NCBI GenBank assembly: GCA_937864535.1
Contig: CALMJS010000016.1
Coordinates: 124,001-188,000, forward strand
Source: an uncultured Paracoccaceae bacterium
GTDB lineage: Bacteria; Pseudomonadota; Alphaproteobacteria; Rhodobacterales; Rhodobacteraceae
Direction: 5' to 3'
Length of the DNA stretch: 64,000 nt
The notes under the pieces: model-generated
What the model was told of the DNA's origin: nothing
The model's input: only the letters and a program-made list of their open reading frames with translations
Database searches by the model: none
In this document: positions 5,918-19,459 of the stretch, in pieces
Layout: each line of letters starts with the position of its first letter
Position numbering within the stretch: the stretch's first letter is position 1
Translations under genes and position numbers: made by a program

Positions 5918-6642
5918 CCCATCACGATCAATCCTTGGTCACCGCGCCGCTGCTGTCGGTCGAGAACCTTCAGGCGTGGTATGGCAAGAGCCACATCCTG
6001 CACGGCGTGACGCTCACTGTCGGGCAGGGGGAAATCGTGTCCCTGCTGGGCCGCAATGGCGCGGGCCGGTCAACGCTGCTCAAATCCATCATGGGCGCGG
6101 TCACGACCAAGGGCGCGGTTCGGCTGTCGGGCCGCGACCTGGCGGGACAAAGGCCGCATAAGATCGCCCATGCCGGGATCGGCTATGTCCCGGAGAGCCG
6201 CGATATTTTCCCTGACCTGACGGTGCGGGAAAACCTGATCCTCGGCCAGAAACCGGGCGGGGCAGGGCTCTGGTCGATGGAGGATATCTTTGATCTGTTC
6301 CCGGTGCTGCGCACCCGCGCCGATACCCGTGCGGGGGTTTTGTCGGGCGGCGAACAGCAAATGCTGACGATCTGCCGGACGCTGATCGGTGATCCCGATC
6401 TGATCATGATCGACGAGCCGACCGAAGGGCTGGCCCCGAAAATGGTCGCCGCCGTCGGGCAATTGCTGGAACGGATCGCGGCGCGGGGCGTGTCGATCCT
6501 GCTGGTCGAGCAGAAACTGGTGATCGCGCTGGATATTTCCCATCGGCTTTATGTGATGGGCCACGGCGAGATCGTGTTCGAGGGCACGCCGCAGGCGCTG
6601 CTCGATGCGCCAGAGGTGCGTGCCGAATGGCTGGAGGTATAG
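5914..6642 (+). CDS. Liv-type ABC transporter ATP-binding protein (LivF family), Walker A Lys to Arg
   Basis: A 242-residue ABC ATPase of the LivF subfamily with GYVPESRDIFPDLTV, signature LSGGEQQ, Walker B LIMIDEP and switch histidine region VEQKLVIAL (Gln-Lys in place of the usual His, as is normal in LivF). Walker A is GRNGAGRST at residues 46-54: codon CGG at 6067-6069 puts Arg52 where the catalytic lysine belongs. This is a base-clean substitution in an otherwise intact gene, not a decaying one. The canonical signature here would serve the intact Walker A of the partner ATPase. The gene ends two bases before the next start, so it is in the same operon. Confidence 0.92.
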   Translation: MTHHDQSLVTAPLLSVENLQAWYGKSHILHGVTLTVGQGEIVSLLGRNGAGRSTLLKSIMGAVTTKGAVRLSGRDLAGQRPHKIAHAGIGYVPESRDIFPDLTVRENLILGQKPGGAGLWSMEDIFDLFPVLRTRADTRAGVLSGGEQQMLTICRTLIGDPDLIMIDEPTEGLAPKMVAAVGQLLERIAARGVSILLVEQKLVIALDISHRLYVMGHGEIVFEGTPQALLDAPEVRAEWLEV

Positions 6643-6644
6643 AG

Positions 6645-7412
6645 ATGAGCCGACCTGTTGCCATCGTGACCGGAGCCCGCCAGGGCCTGGGTCGCGGTAT
6701 CGCGCTGGCCTTGGCCAAGGCGGGGTTCGATCTGGGGGTGCTGGATCTGGTCCACGATGAAAAGGCCGACAGCCTGACCGGGGACCTGACGGCGCTGGGC
6801 GCCAAATCCGCCTTTGCGGTCATGGATTTGGCCGATCTGTCGTCTCATGCGGCGGCGCTGGACCAGCTTGAGGCCGCGCTGGGGCCGGTCGATGCGCTGG
6901 TGAACAACGCAGGCATCGCGGCACGTCCGTTGACGGACCTGCTGGATCTCGGGCCAGAGGCCTTTGACCGCAATCTGGGCGTCAATCTGCGCGGGACGTT
7001 CTTTTTTACGCAGGCAGTGGCGCGGCGGATGGTGGCCCGCCAGACCGAAGGGTACCGGTCGATCACCTTTATCACCTCGATCGCGGCGGCGCATGTGTCC
7101 ACCGATCGCAGCCCCTATTGCATCAGCAAGGCGGGCCTGTCGATGACGGCGCAGCTGTTTGCCGACCGGCTGGGGGCCAGCGGCATTGCTGTGCATGAAA
7201 TCCGCCCCGGATTTATTCGCACAGAGATGACCGGATCGGCCCCGACCGGAAAAATTGACGACTACATCGCGTCCGGCGCGGTGACCCAGCGGCGCTGGGG
7301 CCAGACCCAGGATATTGGCGCTGTTGCGGCGGCGCTGGCCTCGGGGGCGCTGCCCTATGTGACCGGACAACCCATTTACGTCGACGGTGGCTATCACATC
7401 CCCACCGCCTGA
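6645..7412 (+). CDS. SDR family oxidoreductase (FabG-like, 3-ketoacyl reductase type)
   Basis: A 255-residue classical short-chain dehydrogenase. The cofactor motif TGARQGLG is at about residues 9-16, N-N-A-G follows strand 4, and the catalytic serine region FITSIAAAH precedes YCISK. The C-terminus reads PYVTGQPIYVDGGYHIP, typical of the family. The annotation '3-ketoacyl-ACP reductase-like' reflects sequence type only; within this operon it is more likely an alcohol dehydrogenase or ketoreductase for the imported substrate. The ATG at 6645 follows GGAGGTATAGAG and is preferred over an in-frame ATG 18 bases upstream that lies inside the preceding gene. Confidence 0.88.
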   Translation: MSRPVAIVTGARQGLGRGIALALAKAGFDLGVLDLVHDEKADSLTGDLTALGAKSAFAVMDLADLSSHAAALDQLEAALGPVDALVNNAGIAARPLTDLLDLGPEAFDRNLGVNLRGTFFFTQAVARRMVARQTEGYRSITFITSIAAAHVSTDRSPYCISKAGLSMTAQLFADRLGASGIAVHEIRPGFIRTEMTGSAPTGKIDDYIASGAVTQRRWGQTQDIGAVAAALASGALPYVTGQPIYVDGGYHIPTA

Positions 7413-7520
7413 CCTGACGACCTGAACCCTGATTTAGACCCCCGACCGGCCCACCGGATCGGCACCGAGGCAGCCTGCCCCGGCCAGCAGAGGTCTGCCC
7501 AATTGAGAGAGGAGAAAGAC

Positions 7521-8363
7521 ATGCTCGACACTCAGCCATATCGCCAAGGGGCGGTGACGGTGGACGGCGTGACCGTCCGGTACCGCGTCGCGGGGCCTGA
7601 CAATGCCCGTGCGCCTCTGGTGCTGGTCCATGGCACCGCCGGAAGCATCGACGGCCATTACGGCTATATTTTCCCGATGATGGCCTATCGGCAGCGGGTG
7701 ATCGCGCTCGATTTCACCGACCCCGGCCATGACCGTCTGGACCTGGCGCATCTGGTGGCGCAGGTTCGCGCCGTGATCGAGGCAGAGGTGCCGACCGGCC
7801 CGGTGACCCTGATGGGGTATTCGCTGGGCGCTGTTGTTGCCGCGCAAACGGCGGCCGAAATGGGCGACAGGATCACCAATCTGATCCTCGCGGCGGGATG
7901 GCTGAAAACCGATACCCATCAGCGGATGCGTGGCCGTGTCTGGCGTGCGCTGCGCGATCAGGGCAGCGAAAACCTGACGGAATATATGACGTTCTGCGCG
8001 TTTTCCCCGGCCTTTATGAATGCCCGCACGCTCGACGACATGGTCAAGGCTGCGGGGATGCTGACCATCACGCCCTTTGTCGAAAAACAGATGGACCTGA
8101 ATGCGCGGATCGACATTGCGGTGGCCTGTGAAACCATCACCGCTAAAACGCTGGTCATCGGCTGCACCTATGACATGATGGTGCCCCGCCATCATTCCAA
8201 GCAGTTGTTCGGCGCCATCGAGGATGCCCGCTATACCGAAATCCCCTCGGGCCATGCGGTCGTGCACGAACGTGCGGCCGAGCTGTTCTATCACGTCGAT
8301 CGCTTTGCCGCGCAGCCCGATGGCTTTGCCGCTGGCACGATCATTCCCGCCCAGAAACCATAA
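7521..8363 (+). CDS. Alpha/beta-fold hydrolase
   Basis: A 280-residue alpha/beta hydrolase. The oxyanion segment VLVHGTAGS lies at residues 34-42, and the nucleophile elbow G-Y-S-L-G places Ser101. The acid is probably in TYDMMVP and the histidine in SGHAVVHE near residue 249. Such enzymes hydrolyse esters, lactones or C-C bonds in ring-cleavage pathways. The gene lies just before a Baeyer-Villiger-type monooxygenase, so its likely substrate is the ester or lactone that enzyme makes, in parallel with the SMP-30 lactonase. The start at 7521 is chosen because GAGAGGAGAAAGAC precedes it directly; an earlier in-frame ATG would leave that ribosome site inside the gene. Confidence 0.88.
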   Translation: MLDTQPYRQGAVTVDGVTVRYRVAGPDNARAPLVLVHGTAGSIDGHYGYIFPMMAYRQRVIALDFTDPGHDRLDLAHLVAQVRAVIEAEVPTGPVTLMGYSLGAVVAAQTAAEMGDRITNLILAAGWLKTDTHQRMRGRVWRALRDQGSENLTEYMTFCAFSPAFMNARTLDDMVKAAGMLTITPFVEKQMDLNARIDIAVACETITAKTLVIGCTYDMMVPRHHSKQLFGAIEDARYTEIPSGHAVVHERAAELFYHVDRFAAQPDGFAAGTIIPAQKP

Positions 8364-8372
8364 GAGGCCGCT

Positions 8373-9839
8373 ATGACGACAACGACTCCGATCCTGATTA
8401 TTGGCGCCGGGTTTGCCGGTCTGGGCATGGCGATCCGGCTGAAACAAACCGGGCGCGATGATTTCCTGATCATCGAACGTGCAGGCGATGTAGGCGGCAC
8501 GTGGCGCGACAACCACTATCCGGGCATTGCCTGTGATGTGCCTTCTCACCTCTATTCCTACAGCTACCTGCCGAACCCCGATTGGACGCGGGTGTTTTCA
8601 CCCGGCGGGGAAATTCAGGCCTACATCCGCAAATGTGCGGAGGACGAAGGCATCCTGCCGCACATCCATTTCCACACCGATATGCAAGAGAGCCGCTGGG
8701 ACGCCGAGGCTGCGGAATGGGTCGTCACCACCGACAAGGGCGTCTATCGCTGCAAAATCCTGATCACCGGCACGGGCCATTTGGCGGATGGTCATATGCC
8801 CGATATTCCGGGGCTGGACGGGTTCACGGGCGAGGTGTTCCACTCCGCAGCCTGGGACCACTCGGCGGACCTGAACGGCAAACGGATCGGGGTTGTCGGC
8901 ACCGGGGCCAGCGCCATCCAGATCGTGCCGGAGATGCAGAAAATCGCCAGCGAACTGGTCGTGTTCCAACGCTCTGCCCCCTACATGATCCCGCGCTGGG
9001 ATCGCGCCTATACCGAGGGCGAACGGCGGATGTGCGCTCGCGATCCGCAGGTGGTCGAAGATCTGCGCTCTGAGATTTTCTGGTCGGGCGAGTTCAACTT
9101 TGCCCAGCGGCGCAACATCCCCCGGTTCCTCAACGAGGCCAAGGCCTTGGCGCTGGGGCATCTGGAGACGCATATCGCAGACCCGGATTTGCGTGCTAAA
9201 TTGACGCCGGACTATGAAATCGGCTGCAAACGTCTGCTGATTTCCAACACCTATTATCCGGCGGTCGCAGCCGCGAACGCCACGGTCGAACCTTCGGCGC
9301 TGGCGCGGATCGAGAACGGGCAGGCGGTTGCGGCCTCTGGTGCGATCTATGATCTGGATGTGCTGGTCTTTGCCACGGGCTTCGAGGCCGTCCGTCCGCC
9401 CTTTGCCGCGCGTATTTTCGGCACCGAAGGCATCAGTCTGGACGCGCATTGGGATCGCGGAATGCAGGCCTACGACAGCATCGCCGTCAATGGCTATCCC
9501 AACCTGTTCATCATCAACGGTCCGAACACCGGCCTTGGGCATAATTCGGTCGTCTACATCATCGAGGCGCAGGTGGATTACATCCTCGGGGCGCTGGATC
9601 ATATCGCCGCGCAATACGTCGAGGTGATCGAGGTCCGCCCCGAGGCCGAAGAGGCCTATATGCAAAAGCTGGACGGGATGGCCGCTGGCACGGTCTGGTT
9701 GGCAGGCGGCTGCAAGAGCTGGTACGTCGATCAGCGCTCTGGCCGCCTGACGCTGGTCTGGCCCGACTTTGCCCATTCCTTCCGAGAAGAAAACGGCACC
9801 TTCCATCCCGAAGGCTATGCAACGGTCGCGGCGGAGTAA
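8373..9839 (+). CDS. Flavin-containing monooxygenase, Baeyer-Villiger type
   Basis: A 488-residue class B flavoprotein monooxygenase. It has two dinucleotide-binding motifs, FAD GAGFAG at 11-16 and NADPH GTGASA at 177-182. Between them is the Baeyer-Villiger fingerprint F-x-G-x3-H-x3-W-[PD], here FTGEVFHSAAWD at 151-162. The family's W-R-D-N-H-Y-P-G-I-A-C-D-V-P-S-H block follows the FAD motif. Members convert ketones to esters or lactones using NADPH and oxygen. The alpha/beta hydrolase and SMP-30 lactonase in the same operon would cleave the product, and the SDR and aldehyde dehydrogenase could finish alcohol oxidation. The substrate (cyclic ketone, terpenoid or aryl ketone) is not determined. 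The gene is ten bases after the hydrolase. Confidence 0.92.
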   Translation: MTTTTPILIIGAGFAGLGMAIRLKQTGRDDFLIIERAGDVGGTWRDNHYPGIACDVPSHLYSYSYLPNPDWTRVFSPGGEIQAYIRKCAEDEGILPHIHFHTDMQESRWDAEAAEWVVTTDKGVYRCKILITGTGHLADGHMPDIPGLDGFTGEVFHSAAWDHSADLNGKRIGVVGTGASAIQIVPEMQKIASELVVFQRSAPYMIPRWDRAYTEGERRMCARDPQVVEDLRSEIFWSGEFNFAQRRNIPRFLNEAKALALGHLETHIADPDLRAKLTPDYEIGCKRLLISNTYYPAVAAANATVEPSALARIENGQAVAASGAIYDLDVLVFATGFEAVRPPFAARIFGTEGISLDAHWDRGMQAYDSIAVNGYPNLFIINGPNTGLGHNSVVYIIEAQVDYILGALDHIAAQYVEVIEVRPEAEEAYMQKLDGMAAGTVWLAGGCKSWYVDQRSGRLTLVWPDFAHSFREENGTFHPEGYATVAAE

Positions 9840-9842
9840 CCC

Positions 9843-10625
9843 ATGATGCTGTCAGGAAAAACCATTATCATTACGGGCGTGTCCTCGGGGATAGGCGCCG
9901 AAACGGCGCGGGTCGTCCGGGCCGCCGGGGCGCGGGTTGTCGGCGTTGATCGCAACCCTGCCAGTGTCGAACTCGATGCGTTTCATCAGGTTGATCTGAC
10001 CGACGCCGGGGCGGTGGAGGCGCTGATCGGGGATCTGCGCACCTATCGCGCCGACGGTCTGGCCAATATCGCCGGTGTGCCGCCGACCGCGCCGCCAGCG
10101 GTGGTGCTGACGGTCAACCTCGTCGCCCTCAAACGCCTCACGCTGGGCGTTGTGGAGAGCCTGACCCCCGGGGCCTCCATCGTGAACCTCGCCTCGCTGG
10201 CCGGGATCGGCTGGCAGGGCGAGGTCGAGCGGATCAAGGCCGCCGCCGATCTGACCCTTGAGGGCGTTGCCGGGTTCTGTGCAGAGCAGCGGATCACGGC
10301 AGAGAACTGCTACTTTTTCAGCAAACAGGCGCTGATTGCCTGGACGCATGAAAACCGCTGGACGTGGCGCGATCGCGGCATTCGCATGAACGCCGTGAGC
10401 CCCGGCCCGGTCGACACGCCGATTTTGGGCGATTTTCTGGAAACGCTGGGCGAACGCGCGGCCGAGGATGCGCGGATCATGGATCGTCCGGGGCGTCCGA
10501 CCGACATCGCGCCGGTCGTGGCGTTTCTGCTGTCGGATGGGGCGGGCTGGCTCAGGGGGGTGAATATCGCCACCGACGGCGGCATGCGCGCCCATATCGA
10601 AGCCACCAGCAACGGTTTGAACTAA
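9843..10625 (+). CDS. Coniferyl-alcohol dehydrogenase-like SDR
   Basis: A 260-residue short-chain dehydrogenase of the subgroup that includes coniferyl-alcohol dehydrogenase and 3-alpha-hydroxysteroid dehydrogenase. The N-terminal ITGVSSGIG motif (10-18) is followed by V-G-V-D-R-N, where the acidic residue favours NAD. A short central region leads to NLASLAG and then a long insert before YFFSK (catalytic Tyr and Lys). The long insert between the serine and tyrosine motifs is characteristic of this subgroup. The tail FLLSDGAGWLRGVNIATDGG is also typical. With the aldehyde dehydrogenase encoded immediately downstream it could oxidise an aryl or terpenoid alcohol to the acid. The substrate is inferred from subgroup and neighbours only. 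Confidence 0.88.
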   Translation: MMLSGKTIIITGVSSGIGAETARVVRAAGARVVGVDRNPASVELDAFHQVDLTDAGAVEALIGDLRTYRADGLANIAGVPPTAPPAVVLTVNLVALKRLTLGVVESLTPGASIVNLASLAGIGWQGEVERIKAAADLTLEGVAGFCAEQRITAENCYFFSKQALIAWTHENRWTWRDRGIRMNAVSPGPVDTPILGDFLETLGERAAEDARIMDRPGRPTDIAPVVAFLLSDGAGWLRGVNIATDGGMRAHIEATSNGLN

Positions 10626-10634
10626 GGGGAAAAT

Positions 10635-12080
10635 ATGTCTTTGGATCTCTTGATTGGCGGGGTGGAAACCCCAGCGCAGGATGGCCGCCAGTTCGCGCGG
10701 GTCGATCCCGTGACCGGACAGGTCGCCACCACCGCCGCCGCTGCGGGCGTGGCCGATGCCTTGGCGGCTGTGGCTGCCGCGCAGGCTGCGTTTGAGGACT
10801 GGAGCGCCACCGGGCCCGAGGCGCGGCGCGCCGTTCTGATGCGGGCTGCCGATATCATGGACAGCCGCGCGGCCGAGTTTATCGACGCGATGGTGTCCGA
10901 GACCGGCGCGACCACCGTTTGGGCGGGGTTCAACGTCCATCTGGCGGCGGGCATGCTGCGCGAAGCTGCTGCGATGACCACCCAGATCGGCGGCGAGGTG
11001 ATCCCGGCGAACAAGCCCGGCACCTTGGCGCTGGCAGTGGCCAAACCGCGCGGGGTCTGTCTGGGCATCGCGCCGTGGAATGCGCCGATCATCCTGGGCA
11101 CCCGGGCAGTCGCGATGCCCTTGGCCTGCGGGAATACGGCGGTGCTCAAGGCTTCGGAGATGTGTCCGCGCACCCATCGCCTGATCGGCGATTGCCTGAC
11201 AGAGGCAGGTCTGCCCAAGGGGGCGGTGAACGTCATCACCAATGCCCCCGAGGATGCCGCCGCCGTGGTCAAGGCCCTGATCGAAGCGCCAGAGGTCCGG
11301 CATGTGAACTTTACCGGATCGACCGGTGTTGGCCGGATCATCGGCGGGTTGGCGGGGCAGAACCTCAAACCTTCGCTGTTGGAGCTGGGCGGCAAGGCTC
11401 CGCTCTTGGTGCTGGCGGATGCCGATCTGGACGGGGCGGTGAACGCTGCGATCTTTGGGGCCTTTATGAACCAAGGTCAGATCTGCATGTCCACCGAGCG
11501 GATCATCGTCGTGGATGCGATTGCGGACGAATTTGTCCGCCGGTTTGCGGCCCGTGCCGCGGCGCTGCCCTTTGGCAATCCGCGCGACAAGGTCGTGCTG
11601 GGATCGCTGGTAACGCTGGCCTCCGCCGAAAAAATGGACGTGCTGATCGCAGATGCCACCGCCAAGGGTGCCAAGATCGTTGCAGGCGGGATACGCAACG
11701 GGTCGATGCACGCGGCGACGTTGCTGGACGGGGTAACGGCAGACATGCGGATTTACCGCGAAGAGAGCTTTGGCCCGGTTAAATCGATCATCCGCGTGGC
11801 CGATACCGATGCCGCGGTCGCTGTGGCCAATGACACGGAATATGGCCTCTCGGCTGCGGTATTTACCCAGGACATCGCCCGCGCCTTTGACGTGGCCAAT
11901 CGGCTGCAATCGGGCATTTGCCATATCAACGGCCCGACGGTGTCAGATGAACCGCAAATGCCCTTTGGCGGGGTCAAGGCCTCGGGCTATGGCCGGTTTG
12001 GCGGCAAGGCGGGGATCGCGGAATTCACCACGCTGCGCTGGATCACCGTCGAGGATCCGGCCCAGCATTATCCGTTCTAA
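10635..12080 (+). CDS. NAD(P)-dependent aldehyde dehydrogenase (vanillin/salicylaldehyde dehydrogenase-like)
   Basis: A 481-residue aldehyde dehydrogenase. The catalytic cysteine is Cys284 in NQGQICMST and the general base is Glu250 in LLELGGKAP. The cofactor segment NFTGSTGVG lies at 225-233, and the catalytic Asn is in PWNAP. The sequence style, with a short N-terminus starting L-I-G-G and AVAKPRGVCLGIAPWNAP, resembles vanillin and salicylaldehyde dehydrogenases, which suits an aromatic-degradation setting. It ends the operon. Only five bases separate its stop from that of the convergent kinase-binding-protein fusion gene, and an inverted repeat sits at the junction. Confidence 0.92.
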   Translation: MSLDLLIGGVETPAQDGRQFARVDPVTGQVATTAAAAGVADALAAVAAAQAAFEDWSATGPEARRAVLMRAADIMDSRAAEFIDAMVSETGATTVWAGFNVHLAAGMLREAAAMTTQIGGEVIPANKPGTLALAVAKPRGVCLGIAPWNAPIILGTRAVAMPLACGNTAVLKASEMCPRTHRLIGDCLTEAGLPKGAVNVITNAPEDAAAVVKALIEAPEVRHVNFTGSTGVGRIIGGLAGQNLKPSLLELGGKAPLLVLADADLDGAVNAAIFGAFMNQGQICMSTERIIVVDAIADEFVRRFAARAAALPFGNPRDKVVLGSLVTLASAEKMDVLIADATAKGAKIVAGGIRNGSMHAATLLDGVTADMRIYREESFGPVKSIIRVADTDAAVAVANDTEYGLSAAVFTQDIARAFDVANRLQSGICHINGPTVSDEPQMPFGGVKASGYGRFGGKAGIAEFTTLRWITVEDPAQHYPF

Positions 12081-12085
12081 TCAGT

Positions 12086-14554
12086 CTAGGGTGCCGCCGG
12101 ATAATAAATCGGCGGCACCTGCACCGCGTCGAGCCAGCTATTGAGGAACCTCTCCATTTTGAGACGGTCCAGATAGGTCAACAGGCTGGGACGCAACGGG
12201 ATCGGCAAAAAGGTCCCGTCATGTTCCGCGATCAGATCCAGCGCGGGCGTGTGCAGATAGGCCGAGGGGCGGATCGGGATCAACTCGCTCTCTGTGGCCA
12301 TCAGGTTCTGACCTTCTGCGGAAATCAGAAAATCGATGAACTCGGCCGCCTCCAGTGGGTGCGCAGCCCCGCGCGGGATAAAGGCCGATCGCGACATGAC
12401 GAGGTTATAATCGTCCATCAGACCGATCTTGATCCGCGGATCCTTGGTGGCATAGGCCAGCGCATAGGATCCGATGACATTGGTGGCCAGCACCAGATCG
12501 CCCCGGGCGACGGCATCCAGCATTTCCGAGGTGCAGCAATAGACCTGCGCCCCGGCACGGCCCAACACTTCGGTCATGCGCTGCCCCTCTAGGCCTTGCA
12601 CCAATTCCTGGGTGGCATAGAGATAGCCGATCCCCGACCGACCGACGTTATAGGTGCCGACCCGGCCAAAGAGCGTGTCCTGGTTGCCACGGATATAACT
12701 GGCCAAGGCCTGGTGCGTGCGCGGGAAATCGGCATCCGACAGCAGGGAAGGGTTATAGGCAATCGCCGCCGGTTCAAAAGTGAACCCGAACAGTTCCGAG
12801 CGCCAGTGCGACCAATCCGGCAGACGCCCCAGATTGGTGAGGTCCGCCGCCTGCGCCAGTCCGCGATTGACCAAATCCACCTGTAGATCCATGGCCGAGC
12901 TAATCACGATATCGGGCACGGGGTCCGGGTCTGCCACCATCAGCTCATAGAGGTCGCGGGTATGAAACTCGCGATAGGTGATCGGCTGGTCTGGATGCGT
13001 CGCCTGATAATGGTTGAGCAGGGGCGCAATCGCCGCCGTATCCGTTGCGCTATAGATGACCAGACTGTTGTCTTGGGCCTGTGCTGGCTGCGGCGAGCCG
13101 ACCAAGGCCAAGATGCCGAACATGATGCTGGCCAATGTGCCACGGCCGGGCAGAGTGCGGGCCGGTTTGTAGCGAGGAAAGGCGATAATGGCGCGCAGGC
13201 CGCCCTTTTTTCCGGTTTCCAGCTGCAGCGCGGCGCGGTGGCTGGTGGCGACCGCCTGCACAATCGCCAGCCCGAGGCCCGATCCGCCGGTTTGCGCCGC
13301 CAGCGAGACGAACCGCTCTGTCGCCTTGGCCCGCAGGTGCGGCGGAATGCCGGGCCCGGCGTCCGAAACCGACAGCAGCAGTGTGTCGTTGTTTTCAACC
13401 CGCAAATCGATGTCCACATCGACCGAGGGTGCCCCGTGACGCAGCGCGTTGTCGATCAGGTTGCGCAGCGCCTCGCGGATCGAGACTGTATCGCCAAGGA
13501 TGAGGTCCATCGCCTCGGGAATTTCGGCATCGAGGGTGAAGTTGGCGTTGCGGGCGGCGCTGTCTTTGATCAATTCGGTCATCAGGTCGCGGACAATCGG
13601 GGTGAGGGCAATGGGCGTGAGATTGGCCACTTCGGAGCGGTGGATCACCATCGCATTGGCCAAGAGTTGATTGGTCAGGCGGACGGATCGCTGCGCCTGC
13701 GCCTCGGCCTTGGTGACGCGGGCGGCCATGGTGTCAAAATCGCTGCAATCGCTGGCCAGCGACAGTTGCCCCTGTAGCGCGGACAGGGACGTGCGCAATT
13801 GATGCGCCACATCGGCGATAAAGCTCTCGTTCAGGCTCCGGCTGGCAGAGAGGCGGGCGATGAATGAATTGATCGCATCAAAGAGCGACCTGACCTCTCG
13901 CGGGGGATGCCCGCCGATCGGGGTCAGGTCGGACGGCAACCGTGCCGCAAGGTCGGTTTCAATATCCTGTAACGGGCGCAGCGCGGTGTTGATCGCCAGC
14001 CAGACCGCGGCAAGGCCGATGAGCGAGACAAAGGCCAGACCGGCCAGACCATAGGACAACAGCGCGAATTGCTGGTCATTGCGCGCCTCGCGGGTTTGGC
14101 CGACCTGCACGGCGATCCATTCGCGCATGTCGCCAACGGTAACTGGCCGTGACTGGACGATGAACCGGAAATCCGTCCCCTGATACTGCGCATCGAAATA
14201 GGCGGGCTCTGCCTGAGGGGCGGACCCCGTCGGCAAGGGCAGGTCGGTCGCGCCGGTGATATTGCCGCGCCGATAGGAAAAGACCGAATAGACCAGACGG
14301 TCGCGAGGAGAGAGGCCCAAAATCTCCATCGCGGAGGAGGGGATATCGACCGTCGCGCCCTCGGTTCCGGCAGAGACGCGTTCGAGGATCGATAGTGCGG
14401 CCCCGGACAACAAGAGGTCGTAGGTTTTGTTCGCGGCCGTGCGGGAATAGTTCCACAGCAGGACCGAAATGATCAATAGCAGCCCGCAAAATCCGGCAGC
14501 CATCAGCGCCAACAGGCGCAGCCGAATGGATGGGGCAGGGGCGTCAGAGATCAT
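12086..14554 (-). CDS. Fusion: TctE-type sensor histidine kinase + periplasmic solute-binding domain
   Basis: An 822-residue single reading frame. Residues 14-34 and 164-188 are membrane helices flanking a periplasmic 2CSK_N-type sensor. A HAMP-like linker leads to the HisKA box DVAHQLRTSL with His251. The ATPase domain has the N-box (NLIDNALRHG), G1 (DAGPGIP) and G2 (GGSGLGLAIV). At residue 461 a basic stretch RYKPARTLPGR leads into a hydrophobic segment (473-491) ending in an AQA-Q signal-peptidase-like site. From about 497 to 822 runs a type-2 binding protein of the AfuA/PgtC class (LVIYSATD, DIVISSAMDLQVDLVNRGLA). Salmonella PgtB and PgtC are a separate kinase and periplasmic sensor of this pairing; here they are joined. 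The gene overlaps the response regulator by 11 bases and diverges from tctCBA. Confidence 0.9.
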   Translation of the reverse strand: MISDAPAPSIRLRLLALMAAGFCGLLLIISVLLWNYSRTAANKTYDLLLSGAALSILERVSAGTEGATVDIPSSAMEILGLSPRDRLVYSVFSYRRGNITGATDLPLPTGSAPQAEPAYFDAQYQGTDFRFIVQSRPVTVGDMREWIAVQVGQTREARNDQQFALLSYGLAGLAFVSLIGLAAVWLAINTALRPLQDIETDLAARLPSDLTPIGGHPPREVRSLFDAINSFIARLSASRSLNESFIADVAHQLRTSLSALQGQLSLASDCSDFDTMAARVTKAEAQAQRSVRLTNQLLANAMVIHRSEVANLTPIALTPIVRDLMTELIKDSAARNANFTLDAEIPEAMDLILGDTVSIREALRNLIDNALRHGAPSVDVDIDLRVENNDTLLLSVSDAGPGIPPHLRAKATERFVSLAAQTGGSGLGLAIVQAVATSHRAALQLETGKKGGLRAIIAFPRYKPARTLPGRGTLASIMFGILALVGSPQPAQAQDNSLVIYSATDTAAIAPLLNHYQATHPDQPITYREFHTRDLYELMVADPDPVPDIVISSAMDLQVDLVNRGLAQAADLTNLGRLPDWSHWRSELFGFTFEPAAIAYNPSLLSDADFPRTHQALASYIRGNQDTLFGRVGTYNVGRSGIGYLYATQELVQGLEGQRMTEVLGRAGAQVYCCTSEMLDAVARGDLVLATNVIGSYALAYATKDPRIKIGLMDDYNLVMSRSAFIPRGAAHPLEAAEFIDFLISAEGQNLMATESELIPIRPSAYLHTPALDLIAEHDGTFLPIPLRPSLLTYLDRLKMERFLNSWLDAVQVPPIYYPAAP
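12090..12119. terminator. Inverted repeat at convergent gene junction
   Basis: GGTGCCGCCG (12090-12099) and CGGCGGCACC (12110-12119) form a perfect 10-bp stem with an AT-rich 10-base loop. It lies between the convergent aldehyde dehydrogenase and kinase genes, within the last codons of the kinase gene. There is no U-run on either side, so if it ends transcription it is not a standard intrinsic terminator; it may instead protect 3' ends. Confidence 0.4.
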
Positions 14555-15218
14555 CCTGAACCACGACCATATATCCCAGCCCTCGCGCCGTGCGGATGGT
14601 CAGGGGTGTGCCGTCCAGTTTACGCCGCAGCCGCGTGACCAGTTGTTCGATCGCATTGAGGGACGGCGTTTCGTCAAAGGTATAGAGGCGGTCCGCCACC
14701 TGTTCCTTGGTCAGCATTTTACCAAGGTTGTCAATCAGGATTTCCAGCAACTGCACCTCTCGGGCGCGCAATTCGGCATCCACCCCGCCGATCATCAACC
14801 GTTTGGCCGCACGATCAAAGGTCAGATCGCCAGACACAAACAGATTTGTCGCCAGACCGGAGCGGCGACGCACCAGAACCCGGCAGCGGGCCACCAATTC
14901 GCGGAAATCAAAGGGTTTGACCAGATAATCGTCGGCCCCGGCGTCCAGCCCGTTCACGCGGTCGTCCACCTCGGAGCGGGCGGTGAGGATCAGCACAGGG
15001 GTCTCATCCCCGCGCGAGCGCATGGACCGCAGGACCTCATAGCCGTTTCGACCCGGCAGGTTCACGTCCAGAATGATCACGTCGAATGACATATGGCGCA
15101 AGAGATCATTGGCCTGATCGCCGTTCGATTCACGATCGACGGCATGACCTTCGGCCCGCAAACGATCAAGGATCGTTTCGGCCAGATCGTCGTTATCTTC
15201 TACCAACAGGATGCGCAT
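14544..15218 (-). CDS. tctD: OmpR-family response regulator (TctD-like)
   Basis: A 224-residue two-domain response regulator. The receiver has the acidic pocket E7-D8, phospho-acceptor Asp51 in IILDVNLPG, Thr79 and Lys101 (YLVKPFDF). The C-terminal winged helix (about 125-220) ends with L-V-T-R-L-R-R-K-L and IRTARGLGYM, the OmpR/PhoB recognition helix and wing. It is first in a two-gene operon with the kinase-binding-protein fusion and diverges from tctCBA, as in the known TctDE arrangement. Five 11-bp tandem repeats in the divergent promoter (15298-15352) are the obvious binding site. The name is by similarity and position; the inducer may not be citrate. Confidence 0.9.
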   Translation of the reverse strand: MRILLVEDNDDLAETILDRLRAEGHAVDRESNGDQANDLLRHMSFDVIILDVNLPGRNGYEVLRSMRSRGDETPVLILTARSEVDDRVNGLDAGADDYLVKPFDFRELVARCRVLVRRRSGLATNLFVSGDLTFDRAAKRLMIGGVDAELRAREVQLLEILIDNLGKMLTKEQVADRLYTFDETPSLNAIEQLVTRLRRKLDGTPLTIRTARGLGYMVVVQDDL

Positions 15219-15352: not shown

Positions 15353-15430
15353 GCATCGTTAACACCGTCCCACCAGCCGCCAAGCGGCGGGAATCGAATT
15401 GGCCCCATGTGGGCATTGGGAGGAAACACG

Positions 15431-16396
15431 ATGAAATTCACCAGCCTGTGGGCTGCGCCGTTCGCGCTCGCCCTGACCGTCACTGCCGCATCTGCCGAAG
15501 TCAACAGCCCCGAATGTGTGGCCCCGGCGAACCCCGGCGGCGGTTTCGACCTGACCTGCCGCGTGGCGCAGACCGGCCTCGAGGCTGCCTTTGGCACGCC
15601 GATGCAGGTGACCTTTATGCCCGGCGGTATCGGCGCTGTGGCCTATAACCTGTTCAACACCACCCGCACCGATGACGGCAACGCGATTGTCGCTTGGTCG
15701 ACCGGGTCGCTGCTGAACATCGCGACTGGCAAATACGGCGAGTTCACCGAGAATGACGTGCGTTGGGTCGGCACCGCTGGCGCTGACTTTGGTGCCGTGG
15801 TTGTGCGCGCTGACAGCCCCTATCAGGACCTCGAAGACGTGATGACCGCGCTGACCGGCGATGCCGGTTCGGTCGTTGTCGGCGCCGGTGGTTCGGTCGG
15901 CTCGCAGGACTGGATGAAGGCCGCTCTGCTGATCCGCGAAGCCGGCGGCTCGCCGATGGATATGCGCTACGTGGCCTTTGATGGCGGCGGCGATGCGATT
16001 GCGGCCCTGCTGGGCGGCTCGATCGCGGTCTACACCGGCGACGTGGGCGAAATGACCCCCCACCTCGAAGCTGGCACCATGCGCGTTCTGGCCACCATGT
16101 CCGACGAACGTCTGGGCGGCGCATTCGCCGAAATCCCGACCGCCAAGGAACAGGGCTATGACGTCGAATGGACGATCATGCGCGGTTTCTACATGGGCGG
16201 CGATGTCTCGGACGCCGACTACCAGACCTGGGTTGACGCGTTCAACGCAGCCTACGCAACCCCCGAGTTCGCAGCACTGCAGGCTGAAAAAGGCCTCCTG
16301 CCGCTGAACCTGGCTGGCGATGAGCTGACCGCTGCCGTTGCCGAAAACATGGCGACCCTGCGTGAAATCGCAACCGAAGCTGGTCTGATCCAGTAA
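15431..16396 (+). CDS. tctC: Tripartite tricarboxylate transporter substrate-binding protein (TctC family)
   Basis: A 321-residue periplasmic binding protein of the TctC/BUG family. The signal peptide spans about residues 1-22 (ending SAE). It is followed by the family's pocket loop A-N-P-G-G-G-F-D-L-T and then M-P-G-G-I-G-A-V-A-Y-N, and later by the D-W-M-K segment typical of carboxylate ligands. Length is standard. It is the first gene of tctC-tctB-tctA and should deliver a di- or tricarboxylate, or a similar anion, to the TctAB permease. The start at 15431 is set by GGGAGGAAACACG; an in-frame ATG 24 bases earlier would precede that ribosome site. Confidence 0.92.
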   Translation: MKFTSLWAAPFALALTVTAASAEVNSPECVAPANPGGGFDLTCRVAQTGLEAAFGTPMQVTFMPGGIGAVAYNLFNTTRTDDGNAIVAWSTGSLLNIATGKYGEFTENDVRWVGTAGADFGAVVVRADSPYQDLEDVMTALTGDAGSVVVGAGGSVGSQDWMKAALLIREAGGSPMDMRYVAFDGGGDAIAALLGGSIAVYTGDVGEMTPHLEAGTMRVLATMSDERLGGAFAEIPTAKEQGYDVEWTIMRGFYMGGDVSDADYQTWVDAFNAAYATPEFAALQAEKGLLPLNLAGDELTAAVAENMATLREIATEAGLIQ

Positions 16397-16413
16397 CCTC
16401 TCCTCCTGGTGGC

Positions 16414-16438
16414 GGGGGGCCGTGTGTGGCGGCCCCCC
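16414..16438 (+). other. GC-rich intercistronic stem-loop between tctC and tctB
   Basis: GGGGGGCCG (16414-16422) pairs perfectly with CGGCCCCCC (16430-16438) around a 7-base loop. No U-run follows, and the downstream permease genes need transcription through it. It probably stabilises the upstream tctC message or attenuates read-through, raising binding protein relative to permease. Confidence 0.5.
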
Positions 16439-16483
16439 TGTCCGCTATGGGTCCCCCCTTTCCTGACATCGAAGGACAATCGA

Positions 16484-16939
16484 ATGGCAGACCGGATTTT
16501 CTCCGGGGTGCTGTTTCTGGTGACTTTGGCCTATGCGGTCATCGCCTTCACCAGCATCAAGGCCCCGTTCCAATACGACCCGCTTGGCCCCGAAACCTGG
16601 CCGCAATTGCTGTCCGTTGTTGCGCTCTTGTGTATCGCGCATGTGTTCTGGCGCCCCGATGTGCATGATGCCGGCGTGCCGCGCATGATGTGGGTTCGGC
16701 TGGGCTACATGGTGCTGCTGATGCTGGCCTATGCCGAGCTCTATGAACGTTTGGGCTTTGTCGTCTCGACCATGCTCTATGCAGGAACCGCGTCGCGCAT
16801 GCTGGGTGCAAAACTGGTGAACGCGGCAATCTTTGCCGGTGTTGCGGGCATTGGTGGCTACCTGCTGTGCTCTGTGATCTTGGACATGAACCTGCCGTTC
16901 GGTGAGTGGTTCGAAGTCCTGCTCTCGTCGGGAGAATAA
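16484..16939 (+). CDS. tctB: Tripartite tricarboxylate transporter small permease (TctB family)
   Basis: A 151-residue membrane protein with four predicted helices (about residues 5-24, 42-58, 70-90 and 115-140) and little else, which is the TctB pattern. The F-Q-Y-D-P-L-G-P-E-T-W-P segment after the first helix is a recognisable family feature: TctB proteins carry a D-P-x-G-P stretch there. It lies between tctC and tctA, two bases before tctA, and is the small membrane subunit of the transporter. The ATG at 16484 follows GAAGGACAATCG. Confidence 0.88.
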   Translation: MADRIFSGVLFLVTLAYAVIAFTSIKAPFQYDPLGPETWPQLLSVVALLCIAHVFWRPDVHDAGVPRMMWVRLGYMVLLMLAYAELYERLGFVVSTMLYAGTASRMLGAKLVNAAIFAGVAGIGGYLLCSVILDMNLPFGEWFEVLLSSGE

Positions 16940-16941
16940 CG

Positions 16942-18453
16942 ATGGATACCATTTTTTCCGGTCTGGCGACCGGCTTTATGGTCGCGCTGACCCCGTTCAA
17001 CCTGATGCTGGTGATGGGCGGCTGTTTCTTTGGGACGCTGATCGGGGCGTTGCCGGGCATTGGTCCGATCAACGGCGTCGCGATCCTGTTGCCGATTGCC
17101 TACTCCCTCGGATTTCCGCCGGAATCGGCGCTGATCCTCTTGGCCGGTATCTACTATGGCGCGGAATATGGCGGACGGATTTCGTCCATCCTGCTGAACG
17201 TGCCCGGGGACGCTGGCGCGGTGATGACCACGCTCGACGGCAACCCTATGGCGCGCAAGGGCGAGGCCGGGCGGGCGCTGTCGCTCTCTGCGGTGGCGTC
17301 GTTCATCGGGGGCACAGTTTCGATCGTGCTGATGACCCTGTTTGCGCCTGTCCTGTCGAAATTCGCTGTGACCTTTAGCCCTGCCGACTATGTGGCGCTG
17401 ATGGTTTTCGCCTTTGCATCGCTTGCGTCGCTGGTGGGTAAAAACCCGACCAAGACCCTGTTGGGGGCGTTGATCGGTCTGATGCTCGCGACTATCGGGA
17501 TTGATGCGAACACCGGCGTGGCGCGCTATGCCTTTGGCATTCCTGACTTACTGGCGGGCATCGACTTCCTGATCGTTGTGGTTGGCCTGTTCGGGATGGC
17601 CGAACTGCTTTCGCTGGTCGAAGAGCAACTGTCGGGCAGGCTCAAGACGCTGCCGGTGGACAAATCCTTTGTGCGCTGGGCAGATATGGCCAAGGCGAAA
17701 TGGACGATCCTGCGTTGCTCGATCATCGGGTTCATTATCGGTGTTCTGCCGGGGACCGGCGCGTCTGTTGCCTCTGCGGTGGCCTATGGCACTGAAAAGC
17801 GTCTGGCCGGAGAAGACGGCAAACTGTTCGGCACCGGCGATGTCCGCGGTCTGGCCGCTCCGGAATCCGCCAACAACGCGGCGGCCGGCGGTGCGATGGT
17901 CCCGATGCTGACGCTGGGTATCCCGGGTTCGGGCACCACGGCGATCCTGCTGGGTGCGCTCTTGATGTTCAACATCCAGCCCGGTCCGCTGCTGTTCACC
18001 CAGCATCCGGAAATCGCTTGGGGCCTGATCGCGTCCATGTACGTGGGCAACGTTGCGCTGCTCTTGATCAACCTGCCGCTGGTTGGCCTCTTTGCCCGCC
18101 TGCTGCTGATCCCGCAGCACTATCTGACGCCGCTGATCGCGATCCTGTCGTTCGTTGGCATCTACTCCATCGTCGGCAACCCGTTCGACCTGTTCCTGAT
18201 CGTCGGACTGGGCGTGTTCGGCTGGTTCCTGAAGAAGATGCAGTTCTCGCTGGCACCGATCATCCTCGGGTTCGTCCTTGGTGGCCTGTTCGAAGGCAAC
18301 CTGCGCCGCGCCCTGTCGATTTCGGGCGGTGACTGGGGCATCCTGTTCGAGGACTATCAGTCGCTTCTGCTCTACGGGCTGGCTATTCTGGTTGTCGTCG
18401 GACCGGCCTACGTGTCCTACCGCAACCGCAAGGCGGCGAAACTGAATGCCTAA
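16942..18453 (+). CDS. tctA: Tripartite tricarboxylate transporter large permease (TctA family)
   Basis: A 503-residue polytopic membrane protein. The family's two sequence repeats both show: G-A-L-P-G-I-G-P-I-N-G-V-A near residues 37-49 and V-L-P-G-T-G-A-S-V-A-S-A in the second half. Y-Y-G-A-E-Y-G-G and A-P-E-S-A-N-N-A-A-A-G-G are also TctA signatures. It is the main transport subunit and depends on TctC for ligand. The start at 16942 follows GGGAGAATAACG. Its stop overlaps the following AbrB-family gene by eight bases, so that gene is probably co-translated with the transporter. Confidence 0.94.
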   Translation: MDTIFSGLATGFMVALTPFNLMLVMGGCFFGTLIGALPGIGPINGVAILLPIAYSLGFPPESALILLAGIYYGAEYGGRISSILLNVPGDAGAVMTTLDGNPMARKGEAGRALSLSAVASFIGGTVSIVLMTLFAPVLSKFAVTFSPADYVALMVFAFASLASLVGKNPTKTLLGALIGLMLATIGIDANTGVARYAFGIPDLLAGIDFLIVVVGLFGMAELLSLVEEQLSGRLKTLPVDKSFVRWADMAKAKWTILRCSIIGFIIGVLPGTGASVASAVAYGTEKRLAGEDGKLFGTGDVRGLAAPESANNAAAGGAMVPMLTLGIPGSGTTAILLGALLMFNIQPGPLLFTQHPEIAWGLIASMYVGNVALLLINLPLVGLFARLLLIPQHYLTPLIAILSFVGIYSIVGNPFDLFLIVGLGVFGWFLKKMQFSLAPIILGFVLGGLFEGNLRRALSISGGDWGILFEDYQSLLLYGLAILVVVGPAYVSYRNRKAAKLNA

Positions 18454-19459
18454 GATCGCAGCCGTCTTTTGGACGCTTGCAGCCGGAGCGGCGGGGGCCT
18501 TTGCCCTTGCCGCTCTTGGCGTTCCGGCGGGCGCCCTGATCGGGTCGAGCCTCGCGGTTGCGGTGCTCGGGGCCCTGACCGGACTGGGGCAGGTGCCCGA
18601 GCGCCTGCGCGACCTCGGGTTCATCGTGATCGGCGTGTCGCTGGGCAGCGGGATCGACACCTCCTTCGGGGCGCATGTGGTGGACTGGGCGCTCAGCCTG
18701 ACGCTTTTGTCGCTGTCGCTGGCTGTCACCTTGGGGCTGGGGGCGTGGATCCTGATGCGCGGCTTTGGCATGGACCGGCAAACGGCGGTCCTGGCCTCGA
18801 GCCCGGGCACCATGTCGAACGCCATCGCCTTGGCGATCGAGGGCAAGGGCGATGTTGCGGCGATCATGGCGCTACAGGTGTTGCGCCTGTTGGTTCTGGT
18901 AATGCTGGTGCCGCCGTTGGCCGCCGTTCTCGACAGTGCGCCCGTCACCGTGCCCAAGGCACAGGTGGCACAATTGCCGGTGTTGCTGGGGCTACTGCTG
19001 GCCTCCTATGGTGCGGGTTGGCTGGGCCAGAGGGCCAAGGTTCCCGCCGCCTGTCTCTTGGCCGGATTGATCCTCAGCGCGACGGCGCATGGCACAGGGC
19101 TGGTCCATGGTGCGGTGCCATCATGGGCGATTTTCGCGGGTTTTGCCGTCACCGGCGCGACGCTCGGCACTCGCATGACCAAGGTGGGCGTGAAATCGCT
19201 GGCCAAGGCGATGCGGGCCGGGGCGGCCTTGCTCTGTGTGACGATGGGTGTGTCGTTCGGCTTTGCGCTGATCACCGCCTTTGTCTCTGGCCTGCCCTTG
19301 CCGCAGGTCTGGATCGCCTTTGCCCCCGGCGGGGTCGAGGCGATGGCCGCGATCGGGCTGTCGCTGGGCTATGATCCTGCCTTTGTGGCGCTGCATCATT
19401 TCGTGCGGATCGTCGTGCTGGTCGCCTTGGTGCCTGTGGCGCTCGGGCGGCGGCGCTAG
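18446..19459 (+). CDS. AbrB family membrane transporter (duplicated AbrB domain)
   Basis: A 337-residue hydrophobic protein of the AbrB duplication family (sometimes labelled ammonia monooxygenase regulator, a name without functional support). Two related halves each carry G-[AF]-L-x-G and S-P-G-[TG]-M/V-type loops: ASSPGTMSNAI in the first half and FAPGGVEAMAA in the second. That internal duplication defines the family. Roughly nine or ten helices are visible. It overlaps tctA by eight bases, so it probably works with the tricarboxylate transporter, perhaps as an exporter or accessory channel. The function of this family is not established. A bidirectional terminator follows. Confidence 0.85.
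   Translation: MPKIAAVFWTLAAGAAGAFALAALGVPAGALIGSSLAVAVLGALTGLGQVPERLRDLGFIVIGVSLGSGIDTSFGAHVVDWALSLTLLSLSLAVTLGLGAWILMRGFGMDRQTAVLASSPGTMSNAIALAIEGKGDVAAIMALQVLRLLVLVMLVPPLAAVLDSAPVTVPKAQVAQLPVLLGLLLASYGAGWLGQRAKVPAACLLAGLILSATAHGTGLVHGAVPSWAIFAGFAVTGATLGTRMTKVGVKSLAKAMRAGAALLCVTMGVSFGFALITAFVSGLPLPQVWIAFAPGGVEAMAAIGLSLGYDPAFVALHHFVRIVVLVALVPVALGRRR

Follow-up and report, generated by a model that had tools for sequence, protein, structure and literature searches.

We identified, in a window of 64,000 nucleotides (the whole stretch of DNA analyzed here), a gene that encodes a sensor histidine kinase and a periplasmic solute-binding protein (SBP) in a single frame, and this fusion is real and conserved. 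Comparison of the sequence with those of its relatives suggests that the product is probably a polyprotein precursor, which signal peptidase I would cut into a kinase and a free periplasmic SBP, rather than a tethered sensor.

The fused gene and its locus

Our reading of the ORFs of the window gives an uninterrupted frame of 822 codons, from ATG to TAG, at 12086-14554 of the minus strand. The Pfam analysis of its 822-residue product found the domains 2CSK_N (25-160), HisKA (243-298), and HATPase_c (354-461), followed by SBP families at about 499-768. The kinase has H251 and the N and G motifs, which are invariant or nearly so in an alignment of 30 rows. The gene, its parts, and its neighbors are the following.

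12086-14554, minus strand: fused gene of 822 aa, with kinase, putative internal signal peptide, and SBP (ORF reading, Pfam)
13172-14554, minus strand: histidine kinase part, residues 1-461, with 2CSK_N sensor domain, HisKA with H251, and HATPase_c (Pfam, conserved boxes)
14453-14515, minus strand: TM1, about residues 14-34 (hydrophobic stretch by reading; helix 10-57 in the model)
13991-14065, minus strand: TM2, about residues 164-188 (hydrophobic stretch by reading; helix 156-204 in the model)
13076-13171, minus strand: junction, residues 462-493, with basic n-region, h-region, and AQA; putative signal-peptidase-I cut after A493 (alignments, motif)
12089-13075, minus strand: SBP part, residues 494-822, MctA/AfuA-like (Pfam, structure relatives, comparison with the MctA site)
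14544-15218, minus strand: OmpR/TctD-type response regulator, with an overlap of 11 nt with the kinase start (ORF reading, Pfam, NCBIfam)
15407-16396, plus strand: TctC, the transporter's own binding protein, divergent (Pfam)
16409-16939, plus strand: TctB, start uncertain (Pfam)
16906-18453, plus strand: TctA, start uncertain, overlapping TctB as listed (Pfam)
18446-19459, plus strand: AbrB-family membrane protein, a frequent neighbor (Pfam, locus comparison)

The locus thus has the hallmarks of TctD/TctE-type systems, i.e., a 2CSK_N domain with HisKA and HATPase_c, an adjoining OmpR-type regulator, and neighboring tctCBA genes. The best NCBIfam model of the regulator is TctD, with a score (186.8 bits) below the cut-off of 337. 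The original prediction is supported in its in-frame fusion, its domain order, and its placement of the kinase in the cytoplasm ahead of an exported SBP. The TctD-type regulator and the TctCBA transporter that it described next to the kinase were also recovered by Pfam, in a locus that is kept in fused and split relatives. On the other side, a set of genes at 6627-12080 of the window converges on the kinase gene: it includes an aldehyde dehydrogenase, tested by Pfam, and, from the reading of translations, look-alikes of two short-chain dehydrogenases, an alpha/beta hydrolase, and a flavin monooxygenase.

Relatives and origin of the fusion

Matches at E 1e-30 or better occur in 246 of the 394 genomes of the window's family. 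At least seven matches in these 394 genomes are full length and in a single frame, namely the window's own, five at 51-56% identity, and one at 35%. At E 1e-60 or better, 14 of 385 genomes of the class match, two of them with full-length single frames besides the window's own (59% and 41%), and 14 of 398 genomes of the phylum match, with a full-length frame only in the window's own genome. The loci read do not include two weak matches with long frames (G431 and G483). A separate genome collection returned 53 loci. True relatives make up 46 of these: 30 have both domains in one frame (29 at full length and one degraded), 15 do not, and one is a fragment. Since four loci of this collection duplicate family loci and one class locus duplicates a collection locus, there are 31 distinct intact members of the clade, counting the window, although the rows counted were selected as single-frame and are therefore "in frame" partly by construction.

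The existence of these 31 distinct members, from many assemblies and with their catalytic boxes kept, argues that the fusion is neither an error nor a chance event. We thus give a negligible probability to a sequencing or assembly error, or to a decaying gene, even if such accidents are visible among the relatives: the SBP frame is broken in L066 and L067, and L084 carries a deletion as well as frame changes in its kinase. A sequencing error at the junction, which the original prediction had named as a possible refutation, is hereby excluded. L066 and L067, counted among the 15 loci above, are members of the fused kind in which the kinase and the first ~78 residues of the SBP share one frame and the break lies inside the SBP. 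Together with L087, they represent frame-broken or fragmentary loci (Sulfitobacter MAG, Roseisalinus antarcticus, and Kangsaoukella pontilimi), perhaps through decay or assembly errors. L084 is a degraded copy in Roseovarius gaetbuli, with kinase pieces in several frames, shortened neighboring matches, and a deletion reaching from the ATPase domain through the signal peptide. Large open frames at three SBP matches (L022, L023, and L027) were considered as extra fusions and rejected, as these loci proved to be split.

In the split relatives that we examined, kinase and SBP usually lie side by side as two genes. The second refutation that had been named, homologues consistently split at this point with overlapping genes, applies only outside the fused clade: in G175, kinase and SBP genes share an ATGA overlap, and the start of the SBP is an ordinary-looking signal peptide. 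In Poseidonocella (L086), kinase and SBP overlap in different frames, and the kinase match is diverged and short.

We built a quick tree with SH-aLRT supports only, which contains 83 rows (82 different). It left out repeats of the same locus (L061, L065, L068, L072, L095, L108-L112, L125-L128), rows that were partial or nearly identical to others (L078, L080, L103, L120, L121), broken rows (L066, L067, L084), rows with one hit on each strand (L099, L106, L122), and loci that do not have both domains (L087-L094, L107); it kept L086 despite its short kinase match and L113 despite its identity to L075. The window groups with 30 other fused proteins in a single clade, with an SH-aLRT support of 100. 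The neighboring clade comprises 13 split rows (SH-aLRT 100), from Jiella, Fulvimarina, Hoeflea, Pseudohoeflea, G175, G691, and G1111 (the latter identical to Jiella mangrovi), and the fork that joins both clades has a support of 84. Two more single-frame fusions, L018 and L096, fall outside the main clade at weakly supported positions (48). The label fused or split requires three changes on this tree, two of which are forced by well supported branches. Judging from these sequences, the kinase gene and the downstream SBP gene were most likely fused once in the main lineage, and once or twice more elsewhere.

The surroundings of the gene are conserved. TctA-TctB-TctC faces the regulator, kinase, and SBP in 28 of the 29 intact fused loci of the separate collection, the exception being L056, where the contig ends within tctC, and in all 12 split loci of the Aurantimonadaceae/Hoeflea type. 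Within the fetched flank, AbrB is found beyond tctA in 25/29 fused and 12/12 split loci. The identity is 79-85% for TctA in fused loci and 75-80% in split ones, with values of 70-78% and 61-69%, respectively, for the regulator.

The junction and the release of the binding protein

The junction of the window reads FPRYKPARTLPGRG-TLASIMFGILALVG-SPQPAQA/Q, the slash marking the putative cut. Signal-peptidase-I sites follow the (-3,-1) rule, and our motif call rests on this rule and on comparison. In an alignment of six rows, no column between R461 and S502 is invariant other than those of A491 and A493 (positions -3 and -1). Across the 31 members of the clade, with sites anchored by eye, position -1 is Ala in all. 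With the same eye-picked sites, position -3 is small (A, G, S, T, or V) in 30 members (A 23, G 2, S 2, V 2, L 1, T 1), the remaining one being L047, whose Leu is a poor fit to the motif, and position +1 is Q, E, or D in 25 (Q 17, E 5, D 3, R 3, A 1, S 1, M 1). Picking the best-matching string by eye in each member favors finding the motif. In the automatic alignment of 30 rows, the same columns are Ala in 20/30 (-3) and 24/30 (-1), and neither is among the invariant or nearly invariant ones; we ascribe these lower values to rows shifted by indels. The distance from the GG motif of the kinase to position -1 takes nine values in the 31 members, from 26 to 42 residues, and that from the site to the TD motif of the SBP differs by up to three residues. 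The junction thus looks like a former signal peptide, whose signal-peptidase-I motif would have been kept while the remainder was scrambled. In the two fusions outside the main clade, L018 and L096, the joint also resembles an export signal by eye, with ARA and AFA as its respective ends.

The original prediction took as its main reading a sensor tethered by a third membrane helix. In such an uncleaved single chain, the SBP would stay beside the periplasmic domain of the kinase. The retention of a single frame in 31 distinct members is in line with this, as is the resemblance, by eye, of several SBPs of the split sister group to uncleaved signal anchors, which suggests that a membrane-held SBP can be compatible with function. 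However, the junction is signal-peptide-like, and its cleavage motif is present in 31/31 members (eye-anchored sites) despite the variable remainder of the linker, whereas a tether would need neither the Ala at -1 nor the small residue at -3. The hydrophobicity is also modest (KD19 mean of 1.98, range 1.45-2.39, in 31 members), and the AlphaFold model (30 rows, mean pLDDT of 81.2, pTM of 0.62) has a junction helix of 13 residues, 472-484, between stretches of pLDDT <50, which is short for a membrane-spanning helix. We therefore regard a permanent tether as rather unlikely. The release at AQA-Q by signal peptidase, a side remark of the original prediction, would be the better model.

The main argument for release is comparative. 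Many split SBPs next to the kinase start, by eye, with a short signal-peptide-like segment. In Jiella, Fulvimarina, Hoeflea, and Pseudohoeflea (L073-L077, L079-L083, and L085), the separate SBP has by eye a long, anchor-like hydrophobic start with no clear AxA after it. The motif thus seems dispensable in a separate SBP and is retained in the fused one, which suggests that it serves the release from the kinase. It is the combination of one frame with a conserved cleavage motif that bears on the SBP as a separate periplasmic polypeptide. Yet the motif can be kept without efficient cleavage.

A free SBP could also arise without any cut at the junction if an in-frame GTG, TTG, or ATG just before the signal peptide also initiated a separate pre-SBP, in which case the fusion would be partly incidental. 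Val is found at a favorable spot in 16 of the 31 members, encoded by GTG in 13 of these 16 (expected frequency of 0.41, p 0.0014, ignoring relatedness), and in 8 of 33 fused genes the best combined score of start and Shine-Dalgarno is matched by at most 10% of synonymous shuffles. In addition, GGAGGA precedes the site in L015-L017. But 10 of the 33 genes have no scored candidate (among them L017, which was mis-scored), and GGA is used at the GG pair in 11/66 codons, to be compared with 199/2024 in whole genes. The best candidate of the window is a TTG within the h-region, which lacks a basic n-region and is weak (-1.7 kcal/mol, shuffle P 0.49); the synonymous-shuffle test found no credible internal start in the window. 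We thus consider an internal start very unlikely as the general explanation, while some members may add free SBP in this way. A conserved internal Shine-Dalgarno was rejected, being absent across the clade as a whole. In L015-L017, the conserved Gly-Gly of the kinase is encoded by tandem rare GGA GGA codons, and a possible in-frame start codon comes after them.

Proposed function and known systems

The nearest solved relatives of the SBP are 3c9h and MctA (PDB 7f6e and others, titled metal-citrate-binding protein). The "AfuA/PgtC-type" label of the original prediction is roughly right in fold, as judged from these two relatives and not from AfuA and PgtC themselves. With the numbering offset of MctA fixed from the mutant names of the depositors, five of the six positions mutated in MctA (S26, D28, S79, S164, T199, and Y221) are kept in the window, as D505, S553, S640, T675, and Y697, with S26 replaced by A503, although this may be general for the SBP family. 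TctD-TctE of P. aeruginosa is reported to respond to citric acid (PMC6403454). Given this response, the similarity to MctA, and the kept positions, citrate or metal-citrate is the ligand that we favor, with about an even chance of being right.

Under the favored model of a precursor cut by signal peptidase I, the kinase would insert through TM1 and TM2, and what was once the SBP's own signal peptide would, from its internal position, send the C-terminal SBP across the membrane. The cut after AQA (A493) would yield a soluble SBP and leave a C-terminal hydrophobic stub on the kinase. As the h-region begins 2-3 residues past the last kinase strand in many members, this stub would hold the ATPase domain near the membrane; the anchor-like SBPs of the sister split group (Jiella, Fulvimarina, Hoeflea, Pseudohoeflea) suggest that membrane attachment is compatible with function. 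The SBP, loaded with its likely ligand (citrate, metal-citrate, or a related tricarboxylate), would dock on the periplasmic 2CSK_N domain, and the kinase would phosphorylate the adjoining regulator, which would turn on the divergent tctCBA operon. We infer the cleavage, the docking, the ligand, and the regulation of tctCBA. Thanks to the fusion, sensor and kinase would share one start and be made in equal amounts. On balance, this alphaproteobacterial clade seems to make a three-component nutrient sensor as one polyprotein, with one start, a split by signal peptidase I, a fixed ratio, and a membrane stub on the catalytic domain of the kinase. With the fusion, the stoichiometry of SBP co-sensors and their placement become open to direct tests. 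It also calls for caution, since a domain layout read from the frame (kinase, helix, SBP) need not be that of the mature protein.

TctD/TctE and BctD/BctE share with the locus of the window the Tct-type kinase, the regulator, and the nearby tctCBA. In Bordetella, BctC is a binding protein that signals through BctE, a kinase of the Tct type (PMC5812351): there, it is the transporter's own TctC-type SBP that signals, and bctDE are co-directional with bctCBA, whereas the window has another, unrelated SBP fused in frame to the kinase, and the kinase gene and tctCBA are divergent. In P. aeruginosa, periplasmic SBPs act, or are proposed to act, as co-sensors of kinases, namely the SBPs encoded near AgtS and AruS (PMC11113362) and GltB for GtrS (PMC7927077); these pairs are separate proteins, unlike the single frame of the window. 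Proximity of an SBP gene to a kinase gene does not imply that the proteins bind, as illustrated by the failure to observe an interaction between PA4985 and AruS (PMC11113362). The gene arrangement that marks SBP-assisted kinases, an SBP gene beside the kinase gene, is found as adjacent genes in our split relatives and as a fusion in the window. The Venus flytrap kinases of the BvgS type also join an SBP-like fold and a kinase in one chain, but their periplasmic SBP-like domains precede the kinase (PMC2737282), whereas the SBP of the window comes after HATPase_c and has its own export signal. This position, given by Pfam, led us to reject the assignment of the protein to the BvgS type. MctA and 3c9h share with the SBP of the window the fold and most of the positions mutated in MctA; they are titled ABC-transporter proteins, while the SBP of the window is in a signaling context beside TctCBA.

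A non-exhaustive search of the open-access literature found no single chain with kinase and SBP in this order. SBP-assisted kinases and FbcH-like polyproteins are the kinds already known, and their combination was not found in the literature searched. FbcH, the cytochrome b-c1 precursor of Bradyrhizobium, is a bacterial polyprotein cut by signal peptidase, and its cleavage was demonstrated experimentally. To our knowledge, bacterial polyproteins are rare, and we know of none in two-component signaling. For comparison, cytochrome c1 was found in 77 of 96 genomes. Of nine loci read for their long open frames, seven are out-of-frame artefacts and two are in-frame cytochrome b-c1 fusions. The latter (L161 and L162), from two small-genome alphaproteobacteria, have an FbcH-like layout with a hydrophobic joint and no AxA motif, and thus support the layout, not the motif. 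As a signal-transduction polyprotein, the protein described here would have up to three fusion origins (the 31-member clade, L018, and L096), all with an export-signal-like joint, and, if it is cut in two, it would represent a rare polyprotein-like route to a nutrient sensor. As in FbcH, two proteins that are otherwise separate are joined in a frame that includes an internal signal peptide; FbcH is respiratory, with cleavage known from experiment, and the protein described here belongs to signaling, with a cleavage suggested by sequence comparison.
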